From positions 114,501 to 178,500 of the forward strand of contig CAUYUJ010014617.1 in NCBI GenBank assembly GCA_963575745.1: 64,000 bases of DNA, given 5' to 3'. The stretch comes from Prorocentrum cordatum. Its lineage: Eukaryota > Sar > Dinophyceae > Prorocentrales > Prorocentraceae. The notes under the pieces were generated by a model. The model was given only the letters and a program-made list of their open reading frames with translations, did not search any database and was not told where the DNA came from. This document shows positions 55,961 through 63,887 of this stretch, one piece after another. The stretch's first letter is position 1. The number at the start of each line of letters is the position of its first letter. The position numbers and the translations under genes are program-made.

Positions 55961-56088
55961 ATGATTTGAGCAACTGGTCAGGCCACTACCGCCTGATATA
56001 CGCATGTGTCTGCGCACGCATAGTTACACTGACCATTTGAATATACGCGTACATATCCATACAATCGTATACAGGTATATGTATATAT

Positions 56089-56223
56089 ATGGGTGAGTGA
56101 GTTTGTGAACGTTGATTTTCAGATAGGTTAGCGAAGGGGCCATAGGGCGGGATATGTCTTGTTGTTTCGGACGTTGTCTCCAGGTCTTGCCTGCGCCCGA
56201 AACCGTTTCAAGTTCAAGGCACC
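56089..56223 (+). repeat. 135-bp direct repeat, left copy
   Basis: Begins ATGGGTGAGTGAGTTTGTGA and ends CAAGTTCAAGGCACC. Base-for-base identical to 63,753-63,887. It carries the first codons of the Gag frame from its ATG at 56,154, and a TTTTCAG that could act as a splice acceptor. Confidence 0.95.
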
Positions 56224-57863
56224 ATGACTCACTGACAGAGTTTCGAGGTGCCTCCGCGGGCACCCTCTTGCAGGTCTCTCCGCGGCACCCGAGGGGTGCC
56301 GCTGTGTTCCACCAGACGCCAGAAGTGCCCGCCATGACGCTGGGGGCCGACTCGGCCACGGCGGGTGCGCCGCCGGGACTGGACGCCACCGCTGCGGGCG
56401 AACCGTCGCCGCCGGCCCCCGAGAGCTCCGCCGCCGACGTGAACCAAGGCAGCTGGTGGCTCGCGGCGGCGTGGGGACTCCTCGCCCTGGCAGGCGGAGG
56501 AGGAGCCCTGGCTGCCCAGCTGGGCTCGACAGGACGGGCCCGCCTGGCGGGCCTCACCGTATTCGGGCTGGTGGGCTTCCTCGCCACAGCGAGGGTCGTG
56601 CGCCAGGCGTGGTGGCTCTACTGCGACCAGGAGACGACGAAGGCGCAGATGGCCGCCCTCACGGCCCAGATGCAGCAGCTGGCCCTGTCGGGAGCGATGG
56701 GCATGCCAGGAGGAGGTTTCCCTGGCGGCGGTCCGCCTGACGAGGTCATGCCCGGGTGGGCCGACGTGGGGCCGCCGCCGCCGGGGATCCCGCAGGTGCC
56801 GGGCGTGGCGATGGCGGGGCCGGCCGCAGGACCCATCGGTCCTCCAGTGGGTCAGGCCAGCCACGCGCCCGCGGGCGCCTCGAGCCTGGACGCGCTAGGC
56901 GCGTGGGCTGGCGCGGCTGCCCCACCCGCCACGGGTGCTGGCGCCACAGCTGGGGCTGGGGGCTCGCCGCACGTCCCTCAGTACAGGCCGCCCGAGCTGG
57001 ACAGCAAGGTCCGCCAGCAGGCCAAACAAGTGAAGGAGCTCCTGACAGCGCTCGCGAACGCCAGGGGTCAGGACTATATGTGGGGTCGACGCTTCTGGTC
57101 CAACATCTACGCGATGGATTCGAGTGGGCAGCTAGTGCCCGAGGTGAAGCGTCTCCTGACGGGTTTCGGCTACGTGGGCGAGCAGACGGTGACGGCCCCC
57201 CGCCATGAGGAGCTCGGGGCCGCGCTGGACCGCCTCGCGTCGGAGGCCGCACTGACCGCTGGCGCAGGCATCTGGCAGTCCACCCCCAGCCAGGGCTTGG
57301 CCGCGGCGGCAGGAGGCTCAGAGGAGACGCGATGGGGCTCCTCGTTGCCAGCGGACCTCCAGCGAGCGGCCCCCGAGATCTACAGGGCGATGCGGGGCGA
57401 GGGGTCGACGAGCGCCCGCGACTGGATCGCCCAGCGCTACCAGGGGAGTCGAACCAGTCCGGTGTGGGTCGACCTTTGGACGCTGGCCACGTCGGTCGAC
57501 TTCCGCCTCCGCGACTGCGGCAGCGACCTGGAGATCATGCAGGTGCTAGCCAAGGACGACATGATGGAGATAGGCCTCCGCCGCCTCGCGGCATGCGTGT
57601 ACGAGCAGCGGAGTGGGGACCGCGTCGGCGCCCAGCACACGTTGGGCATCGCACCGCCTGGCGGCTCAGCCGATGTGGCCCCGACGTGGATGGTGGCCTC
57701 AGCGACGATGCACTCGAAGATCGAGCACCAGCGCAGGGAGAGAGTCGAGGCTGAGGCGCGCCACAGGCGAAAGAACGACAAGGGCGGAGGTCGAGGCGAC
57801 GGTCGTGGAGGTGGTCGAGGGGGAGGCCGGGGCGGCAAGTCCGCCGACTCCAAGCATGAATAG
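56154..57863 (+). CDS. Gag-like protein with two membrane helices
   Basis: 569 codons from the first ATG, or 509 from the ATG at 56,334, which has better context (GCCATGA). Residues about 101-121 (WWLAAAWGLLALAGGGGALA) and 131-148 (LAGLTVFGLVGFLATARV) are hydrophobic and predicted to span a membrane. A short coiled coil (160-180) and a Gly/Pro-rich linker follow. The C-terminal half contains DYMWGRRFWSNIYAMD, a helical region with EIMQVLAKDDMMEIGLRRLA and VYEQRSGDRVGAQHTLGIAP, then a basic R-G-G-G-R-G tail that could bind RNA. There is no zinc knuckle. By position and tail it is taken as the nucleocapsid-type protein. It ends at UAG (57,861-57,863), and the same frame stays open beyond. Confidence 0.75.
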   Translation: MSCCFGRCLQVLPAPETVSSSRHHDSLTEFRGASAGTLLQVSPRHPRGAAVFHQTPEVPAMTLGADSATAGAPPGLDATAAGEPSPPAPESSAADVNQGSWWLAAAWGLLALAGGGGALAAQLGSTGRARLAGLTVFGLVGFLATARVVRQAWWLYCDQETTKAQMAALTAQMQQLALSGAMGMPGGGFPGGGPPDEVMPGWADVGPPPPGIPQVPGVAMAGPAAGPIGPPVGQASHAPAGASSLDALGAWAGAAAPPATGAGATAGAGGSPHVPQYRPPELDSKVRQQAKQVKELLTALANARGQDYMWGRRFWSNIYAMDSSGQLVPEVKRLLTGFGYVGEQTVTAPRHEELGAALDRLASEAALTAGAGIWQSTPSQGLAAAAGGSEETRWGSSLPADLQRAAPEIYRAMRGEGSTSARDWIAQRYQGSRTSPVWVDLWTLATSVDFRLRDCGSDLEIMQVLAKDDMMEIGLRRLAACVYEQRSGDRVGAQHTLGIAPPGGSADVAPTWMVASATMHSKIEHQRRERVEAEARHRRKNDKGGGRGDGRGGGRGGGRGGKSADSKHE

Positions 57864-59150
57864 GGGCTCGCGGCGCGCCCCGACGAGCCTGCCGTCGGGG
57901 CGCGGAGCCCGCCAGCGCAGTGGGTGCCCAGAGTGCGCGACGATCTGCACCCCTCGCTGCAGCAGGTGATCTCGGCCCAGCCGGGACAAGAGGCGTTCTT
58001 CCCCATCGCGCTGGTGGATCGCCCTACCCCGATGACGAGCCGATCTAGTCGACTTCGACATCGATTCAAGCGGAAGCTCGCTCTGTGGGCTCTCGCCAAC
58101 GAGTTCGTGCAAGGGATCAACTCCATGGACACGGGCTCGTGCACGGACCTCACCCGCCCCCGCCGTAAGGAGAGCTTGTCGATGAACATGCGGAGGCTGC
58201 GCGGCCAGGTGCATAGGGTGGCTCTACGAGAAGCTAAGCGGCTGGCAGAGGCGCGCCGGGACTGCGGTCTGACAGGCGTCCCCGCGGTGCTGGAGCTAGC
58301 TCGCGTGGAGGAGGTGGGCTATGGTCGGCCTACCCGCCTGTCGACCCATGAGGCCCTGAGAGCGGAGGACATTGATGAGCCGCAAGTAGTGAAGAGTGTG
58401 AACATGCTCGAGGTGCTCGAGCCGGAGGAGGCCAGGTACTACAGCGACGAGAGTCTCGTGGTGGCCCCGACGGAGCTGCGCAGCCGGGTGATCTTCGAGG
58501 AGCTACAGGCCAAGTTCGGTTTCGTTGGAGGTACTCAGGAGGAGTACGAGAAGTATTTCAGCCGCCAGGACATGCCGCCCAACCTGTGGCACTTCGGCGG
58601 CCCGCAGGAGGTGAAGGCCATCGCGGGCTTCAGCACGGTGGGCAAAAAGACCAGTGGGCGTCAACGTAAGATCATCATGATGGTGGCGGCTAACTATATG
58701 TTTCAGGACGTGAGAGGTCGAGCCGAACACGGACTACACGGAGGAGGTGCCTTGGCCAGCCTGCACGTCCCGTCGGACGACTGGGCGGCTGCGGCGTTCG
58801 ACGAGAGCAACGCCTTCTCTTTCGTGGAGGTTCCGAGCTGGATGTGGGGCTGGCAGTGCGTGCCACCCGTGAGGGCGGCCGCCGTCTGGTGGCGTCTGTC
58901 GCCCAGCCAGCGAGACTCTTTGAATCCTGAGAGCTGGGTCTATCCGATGTGGCGCCGTTTAGTCATGGGCAGCTCCCACAGCGTACACATCCTGATGTCC
59001 ATCAATTCGAGGATATGCTCCATGACGCTGAGGCGCAGCTTGGTAGACCCGCAGCAGGATCACACTCTGGCGTGGCAGGCCGGATACCAGATGCTGAAGG
59101 ATGACGACTGGGCCGAGCGCCAACGACTTCGACGAGATGGCCCCCCCCCC
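57864..59150 (+). CDS. reverse transcriptase, N-terminal half (fingers/palm, motifs 1, 2, A, B)
   Basis: Same frame as the Gag protein, directly after its UAG, so it may be made by stop-codon readthrough. An internal start is possible (GTG 57,924 or ATG 58,032). An N-terminal region of unknown role is followed by the RT signature. Motif 1/2 is KKTSGRQRKIIMMVAANY (about 58,645-58,700). Motif A is AFDESNAFSFVEVP with the first catalytic Asp at 58,801. Motif B is LVMGSSHSVHILMSI (58,959-59,005). The frame reaches a run of eleven C at 59,141-59,151. Beyond it the present frame ends at 59,288 without RT content, whereas the -1 frame continues into the methyltransferase. So an indel or a -1 frameshift is needed here. 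Confidence 0.78.
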
Positions 59151-60005
59151 CGAGCGGGTTTTCCGTGGCGAGCTGGTGCGAGGCAGTACGCCACGCACGG
59201 CGTCAGGAGACCCGCGTCTTCGTGGTCATGCACCTGTTCGCGGGGGCCCGGAGGGAGCAGGACGTGCAGCACTACGTCGAGGCGATGATGACCGACCTGG
59301 AGCTGAAGGTGCTCATGATCTCGGTGGACCTGGCCGAGGACTCGCGGTGGGACCTCGGGCGCGTCGACACCTTCGAGTTGCTCTGGCCCCTGGTGTCCGA
59401 GGGCCTGGTGGACGTGATCCCGGGCGGCCCCCCCTGCTCGACCTGGAGCCGAGCGAGGTTCAGGCCTGGAGGACCACGACCCCTGCGCCGTCGAGGGAAG
59501 TACGCATGGGGGCTACCCCGCGAGAGACTGCGGCCTTCTGAGGTGGAGCGGCTGGACGAGGGCAACCGCCTGATGGTCAACCACCTGGCGCTGTGCGGCG
59601 GGGTGGGGGACCGCGGGGGAGCCTGGGCCCTCGAGCATCCAGACGATCCCGGGGAGGACCCGTACCCGTCCATCTTCGACACCGAGATCTTGAAAGGATT
59701 GGAGTCCAGGACGGGAGCGCGGCACATCATCTTTGACCAATGCATGATGGGCGGGCCCTCGCAGAAGCCCACGAGGGTAACAGGTACGGTACGACTGGCG
59801 GCCACCGAAGCACTAAGGTGCGACGGCGCCCACACACACGAGCTGAGCTACGGTGAGGTTAACGGTAACTTTCGGACGACCAAGCTGGCCACCTACCCAC
59901 CTCGACTGTGCAGGTGGATAGCAGAGGGCATAGTGGCCACGCTGTCGGAGATGGCGCAGACCGGCGGCGGGCCAACAGGACACGTACGAGACGGAGTGAA
60001 GTGTC
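59150..60005 (+). CDS. DNA (cytosine-C5)-type methyltransferase domain within the Pol protein
   Basis: Frame 2, open from before the C run and continuous with the RT C-terminal half. Motif I is VVMHLFAGARREQDVQHY (SAM binding; C5 enzymes have D-L-F-A-G). Motif IV is VIPGGPPCSTWSRARF, with the Pro-Cys catalytic pair at 59,427-59,440. Motif VI is probably WALEHPDDPG (E-N-V in typical enzymes; here E-H-P). A KPTRVTGTVRLAATEAL stretch and TTKLATYPPRLCRWIAEGIV follow, the latter like the C-terminal motif X region. It is short, with little room for a large target-recognition domain. C5 methyltransferases inside retrotransposons have been reported from dinoflagellates. The methylation specificity cannot be read from sequence. 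Confidence 0.72.
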
Positions 60006-61216
60006 AAAGGATAACGTGCTACTCGGGGCCGTTGGACCTCGGCGCCTTCCATTTCCTGAACGAGACGTCCTCGCGAGGCCGCGGGGCAGTGCTGGGCGCG
60101 AGGGACACGAGCTTCTACCTCCACATCGACGACGGCCTGATCGCAGCGGACGGCGGGTCCCGGCGGTCAGGCGAGAAGAAGGTCAACAAGCTGGTCCACC
60201 AGGTGGCGGACGCGCTGGAGGACGTGGGCTTTGTTGTGAAGGACCGGAGGGAGCACGGCATGGTGGATCGCATCGTGGGCTACGAGGTGGAGTCCAGCCC
60301 CGCACGAGTGCGGGTCCCGAAGCGCAAGGCGGCGCTCATGTATGAGGCGCTGCTGCTGCTCACGAGCCGGGACTGGGTGCACCTGGACCACCTGGCGTCG
60401 GTCATTGGGGTCTGGATCTGGGCGGCGCTGCTAGCCAGGCACTGGCTGTCGGCGCCTCAGCACCTGTTCCAGTTCGCACGCCAGGAGGGCCCGCGCTGGA
60501 GACGGCGGTGGCCGTCGGCCCGTCGTGAGGCCGTGGCCATGCGACGAGGCATCATGGGGCTCTACGCCGACCTGGGGGCCCCGCTACTGCCGATGGTCTT
60601 CGCCTCGGACGCCGAGGGCGCGCAGGACTTCGACGCGGGCGGCTACGGCATCGTCGTGGCCGCGGCGAACTCGAAGATCGTAGAGGAGCTGTGGAACGCT
60701 GGTGCCCGCCCTGGCGTGGCCGTCGCCAAGCCAGGACAGCTGCAGAAGGTGCTGGAGCGGGGCCCTGAGACGCTACAGCCTTTCCTGCCAGTGAGCTCAG
60801 TTGAGAGGGGTTGGATCGACGGAGAGGCCTCCTGGATCCCGGTTGAGTCTGGGCGCTGGAAGGTGCCTGACCACATCGTGCTGGGAGAAGGGCGGGCCGC
60901 ACTGAAGGTCCTGTCGCGTCTGGCGCTGCTGCCGGAAGCTCACCGCTCGAAGGTCCTCAGCCTCGAGGACAACATGGCTTTCGCGGGCGCTGCGGCCAAA
61001 GGCCGATCGGCCGCCGGCCCCGTGAACTACTTACTCAGGCGGAGGTGCGCGTTGTCGAGCGCCACGGAGATCAGGATGCACCTCCCCTGGGTGGAGACCG
61101 AGAGGATGCCCGCGGATGGCCTCTCACGCATGAGAGGATGTGGTCAGGATTCAGAGGGGCACAACGCCCCGGTGCCGAGAGTAGACGCGCGCAGCGTGCG
61201 CATCATCCAGAACTGA
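60006..61216 (+). CDS. reverse transcriptase C-terminal half (motif C) and RNase H
   Basis: Continuous frame with the methyltransferase. Motif C is FYLHIDDGLIAADG (60,113-60,154), with the two catalytic Asp. It is followed by KVNKLVHQVADALEDVGFVV and RIVGYEVESSPARVRVPKRK, the thumb-side motifs with a VxYExxxxPxxVxxP pattern typical of DIRS/gypsy-like RTs. RNase H follows: LPMVFASDAEGAQDFDAGGY (first Asp), LSLEDNMAFAGAAAKGRSAA (D-N with K-G-R-S) and ETERMPADGLSRM (last Asp) up to the TGA at 61,214-61,216. Confidence 0.8.
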
Positions 61217-62184
61217 CTTTTTCGAGCCCGAGGGTGCCAGACGACAAGCACCTGGAGGGCCGTGTGCAGCCCGAGACATTGCTAACCTATCGCAAGCGAG
61301 CAGCGGAGTTTTACCAGTGGTGCGTGGCCGAGGGGGCCCGCCCCTGGAGCCCTGACGAGTGGGACGACACGATCATGGAGTACAAGGCCTCAGTGGACTT
61401 GCTCAAGAGTCATTTCACCTCCCTGCTCGCCGCTATCGAATTCAAGTTTCCGCGGCTGAAGGGCCGCCTTTGCAGATGCCACGCTGCCTTGCGTGGCTGG
61501 GAGTTAGAGCACCAGACCAAGCACACAGTGCCGATGGTGAGCACCGCCCAGGCTTTCGTCAGCGTGCGGCTCAGCGCGCTCGGAGAGCCTCGCCTGGCCA
61601 TCGGCCTCATGTTGCAGGGAAAAGTCGGGATGCGGCCCAGCGAGATGCTGGGGATCGTCACGTCCGATCTCGTCTTCCCCGAGGAGTCTGGGTACGGTCG
61701 AGGTCGAGGGCCCCTGATAGTAGGCTTGGGTATCAAGGCGAACACCAAAGCGAAGCGCCCCCAGTCGAACGCCATCCTGGAGGCCTCCAGCCCTGTATTG
61801 GTGGATCTCCTGAGGACCCTGAAGGCCCACACGCCCCCAGGGGGCCGCATGTTCCCCTACACCCTCGAGAAGTACCGCAAGTTGCTCGCTCGCATCCAGT
61901 CGGAGTGTAACCTACCAATGGGATGGGCCCCCCACAGTGCCCGAGCAGGTTTCGCTTCAGAGGCCACAGCGTGGGGTATGTCTTTCGAGCAGATTCGAGA
62001 AACAGGCCGTTGGAAGGTGGACAGTTCCCTTCGAGTATATATCGACATGGTCCAGGCCGCCCACATAGCCGTGGGGCTCAAGGCGGCTGGGTGGGGTCCA
62101 GCTTTCGATTGGGCCGGCCAACACTGGGCCTGGTGTGCGCTACGGGCGTTGCATGGCACCGAAGGGCTCCAGACGCCTGGCTGA
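61217..62184 (+). CDS. tyrosine recombinase (integrase function)
   Basis: Frame 1, -1 relative to the RNase H frame. It is open from 61,045, overlaps the RNase H end by about 170 bp, and is conserved from LEGRVQPETLLTYRKRAAEF (core-binding domain) onward. Catalytic residues are visible: Arg in GKVGMRPSEMLGI (61,633-61,635), His and Arg in WAPHSARAGFASEA (61,933 and 61,942), the Trp of ETGRWKVDSS in place of the second His/Trp, and the Tyr nucleophile in LRVYIDMVQ (62,038-62,040). This would join a circular DNA copy into the genome without a target duplication. Translation may use a -1 frameshift in the overlap, or an internal start. Confidence 0.83.
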
Positions 62185-63382
62185 CGGGTCATGGGCGACA
62201 CCAGAGACGATACCGACGGCCAGATCGAGCACGCCACCGCCATCACCTTTCTCTACCGGGAACTCGTCCTGGGTACTACCGAGCTACCCACCTACGCCGA
62301 CTAGTTTGGTTTCACCTTTTGGGCTGACGCCGTCACCAACGCCGACGGGTACGGCAACACCGCCAATGGCTAAGGCGGCGCCTGGAGTGCCGACTTCATG
62401 GGCGACCCCCAGGCCGCAGCCGACCCGCCGACGAGTTTCTTCTGTATGGTACCTGTGGAAGTTGGCTAAGTTGTCTTCCAGCTGCAGCGGGGGCTGCAGC
62501 TGTGCTGTGCTCATCTTGGCGGTGCTACTGACTACGGCGTGGAGCCCCCTGTTCGCACGCTCGATGAGCATCGCCTCGGACGTGGCCGAGGAAGTCGGAG
62601 GGGCGGCAGGCCGCATGATGGGCGCAGGTGCGAACGTGTCGTCGAGCGCGGCACGGATCTTCAGCGCCCTCACCGACAACACCCTCAGCCTCGCCGAGAC
62701 CGCTTGGGAAGGCATCGACCTCACGAATGTTACGGTCAACAGTTCCGCCGGCCGCATCTTTTTCGATGGAAACGAGTACGCCGAGGACGTACTGACTACG
62801 CCAGAGGCTCGAGCGGTGATGGGACTGCCCGACCACTGGCTCCAGGCTTTGGCGGATATTTTGATTTTTGCATCACCTTCTCGCCCGCTGGTGGAAGTAC
62901 ACAAGCACCTCTTCATCAGCGACTCATCCTATACCTCCCTGGACCTCTGGATGGCCTGGTTCGATACGGGCCACGTGGGCTTGGCCTGGAGGACTGCAGG
63001 TGTTACCTACAACGTACGCTGGGCCAACCCCCTGTGGTCGCTGACCGAGGACGCTACCACTCAGACGGTTCGGATCTCAGAGCTGCTGCAAGAAGCTATC
63101 CAGGCGACTATCGACAAGCCAGACCTCACTCTATCCAAGTCAGCCCTACAGCACGCTCCAGCCATCACACCACCCTCAGTGCCGATGAGGATCTGGAGGT
63201 GGAGCAAGCGCCTAGCCGCCTGGGCTTGGCCGCGAGACGGGAACGGGGCCTTTCGCTCGTCATCGGCGCCGGGCGCCGAGGACGAGCCCTCTGCCGCCGA
63301 CGGGATCGCCGCCGACGAGGGTTCCCCGGACACAAAGACGGGCGAGGGCGCCAGCCACAGCGTGCCCGAGCCCTCAGCATAG
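62153..63382 (+). CDS. single-pass membrane protein, env-like in layout
   Basis: 409 codons from ATG 62,153, overlapping the recombinase end by 32 bp in another frame. A Pro/Ser/Thr-rich first ~90 residues is followed by a basic stretch (QPTRRRVSSVWYLWKLAKL), a Cys cluster CSGGCSC and one hydrophobic segment AVLILAVLLTTAWSPLF at about residues 118-134. The following ~270 residues contain possible N-glycosylation sites (NVS, NVT, NSS) and a structured-looking region with several Trp and Tyr. The C-terminus is acidic and Ser/Ala-rich. No homology is recognised. It could be an envelope-like accessory protein or a captured cell gene. Confidence 0.65.
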   Translation: MAPKGSRRLADGSWATPETIPTARSSTPPPSPFSTGNSSWVLPSYPPTPTSLVSPFGLTPSPTPTGTATPPMAKAAPGVPTSWATPRPQPTRRRVSSVWYLWKLAKLSSSCSGGCSCAVLILAVLLTTAWSPLFARSMSIASDVAEEVGGAAGRMMGAGANVSSSAARIFSALTDNTLSLAETAWEGIDLTNVTVNSSAGRIFFDGNEYAEDVLTTPEARAVMGLPDHWLQALADILIFASPSRPLVEVHKHLFISDSSYTSLDLWMAWFDTGHVGLAWRTAGVTYNVRWANPLWSLTEDATTQTVRISELLQEAIQATIDKPDLTLSKSALQHAPAITPPSVPMRIWRWSKRLAAWAWPRDGNGAFRSSSAPGAEDEPSAADGIAADEGSPDTKTGEGASHSVPEPSA

Positions 63383-63752
63383 GCCGCAAGCGAGTACGGG
63401 TGGTGGAGCGAGGACCTAGCGAAGATCAGGTCGACCGAGTGCCTTTCTTTCAACGCAGGCTTTTCATCAGATCACACGTTCATTCCAGTCTGCCGGGGAG
63501 GTGTGCGTGACCGCACACAGATGTGAATATTTCTCAGCAGTGAATGATAACAAGTTATCTCTCGAGGTCCGTGCAGGAAAATATTGAGTGAGTTTCGTAT
63601 TCAGCAGCGCCACGCGCAGGCACGTCCCGGCCGCTAGGGCCCAAGTGCCCAGAGCCTCTAGGGTGTGGCGTCTAGGGCTGTAGGCTAAGGCTCTCTTAGG
63701 TCCTCTTAAGGTTCACTGGGGTGGGGCCCCGTTCTTTGGGATCGCACCTGAA
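63383..63752 (+). other. 3' untranslated part of the retroelement
   Basis: Non-coding, with short tandem words CTAGGGC/CTAGGGTG and GAGTGAGTTTCG, the latter resembling the start of the 135-bp repeat. No copy of the sequence after 63,887 was found here. Confidence 0.6.
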
Positions 63753-63887
63753 ATGGGTGAGTGAGTTTGTGAACGTTGATTTTCAGATAGGTTAGCGAAG
63801 GGGCCATAGGGCGGGATATGTCTTGTTGTTTCGGACGTTGTCTCCAGGTCTTGCCTGCGCCCGAAACCGTTTCAAGTTCAAGGCACC
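63753..63887 (+). repeat. 135-bp direct repeat, right copy
   Basis: Identical to 56,089-56,223. It is followed by unrelated DNA (CTCCCAGCCCTCGGTCC) to the window end, where nothing further can be assigned. Confidence 0.95.

Follow-up and report, generated by a model that had tools for sequence, protein, structure and literature searches.

We found that the last 8 kb of a 64,000-nucleotide (nt) stretch of the dinoflagellate Prorocentrum cordatum genome (contig CAUYUJ010014617.1, positions 114,501 to 178,500; here called the window) are a retrotransposon, with a 135-nt direct repeat, 100% identical, at both edges (56,089-56,223 and 63,753-63,887). It is almost certainly a tyrosine-recombinase (DIRS-order) retrotransposon whose pol product is a reverse transcriptase (RT) and RNase H with a C5-methylase-like domain nested in the RT, in the loop of the palm that joins the helix of motif B to the hairpin of motif C. 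Few enzyme cores are as conserved as RT palms. An initial annotation had proposed that a DNA methyltransferase is inserted between RT motifs B and C. The motifs, the sister copies and the predicted fold, which supports a C5-type methylase at this site, bear this out.

Along the window, the motifs (named as is customary for RTs, RNases H, recombinases and C5 methylases) begin with the RT fingers (VGKK..RQRKIIM, 58,638-58,679), motif A (AFDESNAF, 58,794-58,835) and motif B (LVMGSSHSVHILMSIN, 58,959-59,006). These are followed by methylase motif I (FAGARR, within 59,213-59,254), an acidic motif (SVDL, 59,318-59,344), PPC (59,420-59,458), EHP (59,630-59,650) and FDQC..G...KPT (59,732-59,776), and then by RT motif C (FYLHIDDG, 60,113-60,136) and the RNase H D-E-D-D residues (60,599-61,129). 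Pol contains both RT and RNase H. The joined order given by the initial annotation stands, but single-frame continuity does not hold in the window, where motif B lies in frame 57,864-59,288 and the methylase in frame 59,105-61,216. The frame changes at or near a run of 11 C (59,141-59,151), at which assembly error, mutation and slippage are indistinguishable here. Among 18 sister copies fetched from the same genome (L012 to L029), a single frame spans motif B, the methylase and motif C in eight (L014 to L019, L021 and L025), whose B and C motif keys are 362 to 383 residues apart, and five of these eight have pol frames of 1,117 amino acids (aa); the path from B to C is not continuous in one frame in the other ten or in the window copy. 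In one copy with the methylase in the RT (G000:C15757:208140-210215; L009, L016), the open frame extends over 3,962 aa, far beyond the 1,117-aa pol of the sisters. Three other subfamilies, with methylases 48 to 52% identical, each gave one copy with the same order, in frames of 1,134, 1,141 and 1,146 aa. Motifs B and C are 385 to 416 residues apart in 13 of the 14 nested rows that show both, and 230 residues apart in P0003, a spliced gene model without part of the methylase.

The 703-aa frame holding the methylase, motif C and RNase H is matched in one piece, at a coverage of at least 94%, by at least 36 loci in the P. cordatum genome, the window included; 35 of these have no internal stop, and for 23 the enclosing open frame is 1,000 aa or longer. 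These counts are lower bounds, as 63 of 15,667 candidates were scored. Since at least 36 loci are colinear across methylase, motif C and RNase H, the arrangement of motifs is not due to chance. The whole order is also present in one chain in eleven database proteins of 906 to 1,187 aa (P0006, P0008, P0009, P0011 to P0016, P0032 and P0033). P. cordatum proteins compared piece by piece with the window frames were 91 to 95% (P0027), 74 to 97.5% (P0003) and only 45 to 53% (P0004) identical. Three distant loci (L001 to L003) came from a scan of viral contigs with P0022 as the query.

The profile hidden Markov model search proposed with the initial annotation gave mixed results. PF00589 matched the tyrosine recombinase (E value 4.2e-4; 20.6 bits, under the curated cut-off of 27.1), in which the R, HxxR and Y motifs were also found, but RVT profiles matched none of the 26 rows and PF00145 matched three of the 26 (best E value 0.088), none above its curated cut-off; no family was recognized for eight further relatives. 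A Protein Data Bank sequence search with the alignment returned only a nitrite reductase (E value 2.6), and profile-profile alignment to a single canonical dcm-type protein encoded in the same genome covered only motif IV (E value 0.05). Because Pfam fails to recognize these proteins, the identity of the RT and the methylase rests on the fold. In the structure prediction that had also been suggested, the modeled RT matches the folds of the Moloney murine leukemia virus and human immunodeficiency virus (HIV) RTs, with the HIV match extending to model residue 1116, and the insert is predicted to have a C5-methylase fold, with DNMT3A as the top match, tied with M.HhaI. PPC and the catalytic motif VI Glu are kept in 20 of 21 rows with letters at these positions (the exception is P0031), and the RNase H D-E-D-D residues in 21 of 21.

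When the insert-free RT P0028 was used as a query in the P. cordatum genome (about 30% identity), none of the 45 scored matches crossed the insertion site; the matches stop at residue 360 to 376 or begin at 393 to 398, and at nine loci with both halves these are separated by 1,000 to 1,041 nt. The spacing of about 40 residues that the initial annotation gave for B to C without an insert was too short, the actual values being 62 (P0028 and P0030) and 54 to 55 (P0025 and P0022). A complete RT elsewhere in the element, which it had named as the case against nesting, was not seen: in the 18 copies and the window, no RT motif key turned up outside the pol frames. P0028 and P0030 have marginal methylase-profile matches after RNase H (independent E values of 0.2 and 2.5), a suggestion from sequence that a degenerate methylase may lie there.

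The ratio of nonsynonymous to synonymous substitution rates (dN/dS) points to selection on the insert. Between the window copy and seven more distant copies, dN/dS of the methylase was 0.15 to 0.34 in six comparisons and 0.46 in the seventh (L029), and in the same seven comparisons it was 0.11 to 0.23 for RT_N and 0.07 to 0.37 for C-RNase H. Pooled values for ten close copies were 0.42 for the methylase, 0.15 for RT_N and 0.32 for C-RNase H. The close copies are about 98% identical, and the A repeats are identical to each other in the window, L013, L017, L018 and L024; thus, transposition has been recent.

The C5-type methylase family occupies three positions in this genome: in the RT, inside RNase H and after RNase H. 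A supported branch sets the nested methylases apart. L036-type elements have the order RT, RNase H, methylase with the C5-type family. The contrast drawn earlier with classical DIRS elements, which carry a methylase after RNase H, was right in kind, although the C5-type family also lies inside and after RNase H here. Because related elements carry such a methylase at two further sites, it seems to have entered the replication machinery on more than one occasion. We would not lean either way on the broader claim that dinoflagellate tyrosine-recombinase retrotransposons repeatedly built one C5-type family into the cores of their replication enzymes (the RT palm between B and C, and RNase H), giving single-chain polymerase-methylases that might replicate and mark DNA in one step; the published text examined does not describe this.

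The window copy of the last repeat, B2, lies past the window end, in L033, and stops at about window coordinate 64,359, so that the element is about 8.27 kb long. The features within the window are as follows.

56,089-56,223, forward strand: split direct repeat A1 at the left element end, 135 nt, 100% identical to 63,753-63,887; element edge in sisters
56,127-57,863, forward strand: open reading frame 1 (ORF1), gag-like, 578 aa from stop to stop, ending in TAG (57,861-57,863); order the same in subfamily copies L030 and L032
57,864-57,911, forward strand: stem-loop directly after the gag stop (inverted repeat I3; -40.3 kcal/mol over 60 nt)
57,864-59,100, forward strand: pol part 1, RT fingers and palm to motif B, from motifs, alignment and fold
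59,141-59,151, forward strand: 11-C run; here or close by, the window copy drops out of the pol frame; 8 of 18 sisters stay in frame
59,213-59,974, forward strand: nested C5-methyltransferase-like domain, from profile and fold (PPC at 59,420-59,458, EHP at 59,630-59,650)
60,047-60,136, forward strand: RT palm re-entry (FHFLNE, 60,047-60,064) and motif C (FYLHIDDG, 60,113-60,136)
60,137-61,216, forward strand: remaining RT and RNase H (D-E-D-D, 60,599-61,129)
61,220-62,184, forward strand: tyrosine recombinase (frame 60,871-62,184; MRPSE 61,618-61,647, HSAR 61,930-61,953, Y within 62,005-62,046)
62,453-63,382, forward strand: ORF4 (frame 62,069-63,382; hydrophobic segment 62,495-62,542), with a similar protein in three other subfamilies
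63,412-63,752, forward strand: split direct repeat B1, 341 nt, from sister-copy comparison; abuts A2
63,753-63,887, forward strand: split direct repeat A2, abutting B1; B2 is beyond the window (L033)

Split direct repeats in the order A1-ORFs-B1-A2-B2, a PAT-like or Ngaro-like pattern, are seen in the sister copies: B1-A2-B2 is present in 14 of the 18, with A1 too in 11 of these 14, while the repeats are partial in L013, L015 and L029 and absent from L022 within the stretch analyzed. Repeat pairs with the same pattern occur in L030, L031 and L032. The element contains three inverted pairs of 21 to 23 nt, none of them terminal, and its ends are direct repeats; the inverted terminal repeats and internal complementary region of DIRS1-like elements were not found in it. 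Recombinase alignment rows, possibly out of frame at their start, were left unused.

In the window, L030 and L032, gag and pol lie in the same frame and are separated by a single stop codon, a readthrough-type arrangement. The window has TAG GGG and then at once the stem of -40.3 kcal/mol (z-score of -2.29; 4 of 200 shuffles as good), and L032 has TGA CGG and a stem (z-score of -2.09; 7 of 200). In L030, TGA CTA is followed by a stem no better than chance (z-score of -0.39; 71 of 200), and in L031, TGA CAG comes after only 83 open codons. We take the codon contexts at the gag stops of the window, L032 and L030 to resemble known readthrough signals.

The explanation that we favor as a whole, and consider probable, is a nested polymerase-methylase that is made by readthrough and marks new DNA in cis; for the cis-methylation role on its own we see the case as evenly balanced. 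Pol would be produced by readthrough of the gag stop, and the RT palm would close around the insert, with the methylase forming a globular unit of its own on a surface loop. Pol would copy the element RNA into DNA, and the same protein would then methylate this new DNA in cis, so that the DNA presented to the recombinase would resemble methylated host DNA. The fusion to the polymerase, and to RNase H in other families, together with its conservation, argues that the methylase acts on DNA made by the same protein.

We think it unlikely that the insert is mainly structural, propping or dimerizing the RT palm, with methylation secondary or already lost in some lineages. In its favor, nested methylases hold their place through deep divergence, and P0031 has 295 residues at the same site between B and C without PPC, EHP or the motif-I F; this insert was not recognized by the methylase profile and may be a decayed methylase or another insert. 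However, PPC and the catalytic Glu are retained in all but one of the 21 rows, the more distant copies show selection on the methylase comparable to that on the other parts of pol, and the same family lies outside the RT in relatives, where it could not prop the palm.

CpG content weighs against a cis mark. CpG observed/expected is 0.93 in the element, compared to 0.86 to 0.96 elsewhere in the window (seven 8-kb blocks). Among nine copies, CpG transitions are only 1.5 times as frequent as non-CpG ones. With no CpG depletion and a weak transition excess, the sequence carries no strong sign of CpG methylation. The interpretation in the initial annotation is supported in part: the nesting in the RT palm stands, while excision of the methylase and cis marking of complementary DNA (cDNA), which it also suggested, are conjectures. 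In SymbioDIRS elements, too, de Mendoza et al. 2018 (PMC5890265) saw no significant CG depletion. The absence of depletion would suit a methylase that targets the host genome or the element RNA, in self-limitation or relief of silencing, rather than cDNA, and the same authors, writing on related cases, discuss both methylation of RNA and a role that slows the rate to the benefit of the host. We nevertheless judge this improbable: linkage to the RT palm, and elsewhere to RNase H, points to reverse-transcribed nucleic acid, and isolated SymbioDIRS-Dnmt3 domains, though those were found with PF00145, methylated CG in yeast (PMC5890265), which makes the same activity plausible for the nested domain.

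It is also quite doubtful that pol is a processed polyprotein, with the methylase cut out and the two RT halves staying together. Model residues 409-432, before the insert, have a predicted local distance difference test score below 50, and residues 727-757, after it, are nearly without regular structure. The post-insert stretch is, however, modeled confidently (block means of 86 to 94), so that only one side appears disordered, and an insert in a surface loop requires no cutting. Pfam detected no protease in five window frames, although it also missed the RT, and intein motifs were not searched. An accidental insertion or misassembly that put a methylase gene into a dead RT merits almost no credence, since the failure of the window copy and 10 of 18 sisters to stay in one frame is set against the colinear loci, 23 of them in one long frame, the eleven one-frame database proteins and the low dN/dS. 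Chance motifs, misassembly and a dead single copy are ruled out by the copies and dN/dS.

That C5 methyltransferases were already reported in dinoflagellate retrotransposons, as noted in the initial annotation, is confirmed by PMC5890265, which places them within the pol reading frame of DIRS elements from dinoflagellates, in two domain orders and as independent acquisitions. SymbioDIRS-Dnmt3 of Symbiodinium resembles the element in being a dinoflagellate tyrosine-recombinase retrotransposon with a cytosine methylase and RT in the pol frame, the recombinase in its own ORF, A-coding-B-A-B repeats and a divergent RT that Pfam aligns poorly. In contrast, its methylases were identified by means of PF00145 and group with Dnmt3, whereas the nested family shows only the weak PF00145 matches given above. 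The available text gives two pol domain orders and leaves nesting in the RT palm or RNase H unmentioned; Fig. 1e of that paper may draw the order RT-DNMT-RNase H, so that overlap is possible. SymbioLINE-Dnmt, from the same source, likewise comprises dinoflagellate orphan methylases borne by a retrotransposon, but there the methylase is in ORF1 of a long interspersed nuclear element. P0058, P0059, P0060 and P0062 represent another architecture, in which a distant methylase of the nested family (FFSGYRR..GGPPCETF or similar) follows an N-terminal extension, and these distant relatives may be of the SymbioLINE-Dnmt-like kind.

PAT-like, Ngaro-like and VIPER-like elements share RT-RNase H, the tyrosine recombinase and the split direct repeats A1..B1-A2-B2, but differ from this element, which has the nested C5-type methylase and an extra conserved ORF4; PMC4157794 characterizes Ngaro-like elements by the lack of a methylase domain. 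DIRS1-like elements with a Dam-type methylase also have a pol with RT, RNase H and methylase; in them, however, the order is RT, RNase H, methylase, the repeats are inverted and the methylase is called Dam-like. Nesting of a methylase in the RT palm was not found in a search of the open literature, including the text parts of PMC5890265. As far as this published text goes, the exact nesting between B and C with structural support, a family below the PF00145 cut-off, the methylase lodged within RNase H in other elements, and its three positions in a single genome are new. A second whole enzyme between B and C, under selection and at dozens of loci, shows the tolerance of the RT fold. If the proposed role is correct, DNA marking and reverse transcription would be linked within a single polypeptide. 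The element offers a testable way into the question of why retrotransposons carry DNA methylases, for which the three positions of one family in one genome form a natural comparison. This family could escape surveys based on PF00145.

Most of the flanks compared among the element (window 56,030-56,088; L033) and its sister copies are AT or GTAT-type simple repeats, with the junctions ..CTGAA then AT, and AT then GGGTGAG; these recurrent flanks and junctions indicate that the recombinase prefers certain targets. The left flank is the same in L012 and L024, which may therefore not be independent insertions. ORF4, to our knowledge not a usual part of tyrosine-recombinase retrotransposons, is 36 to 38% identical in L030 and L031 and 23% identical over a shorter part in L032, and its dN/dS was 0.16 to 0.37 in six of seven comparisons and 0.69 for L028.
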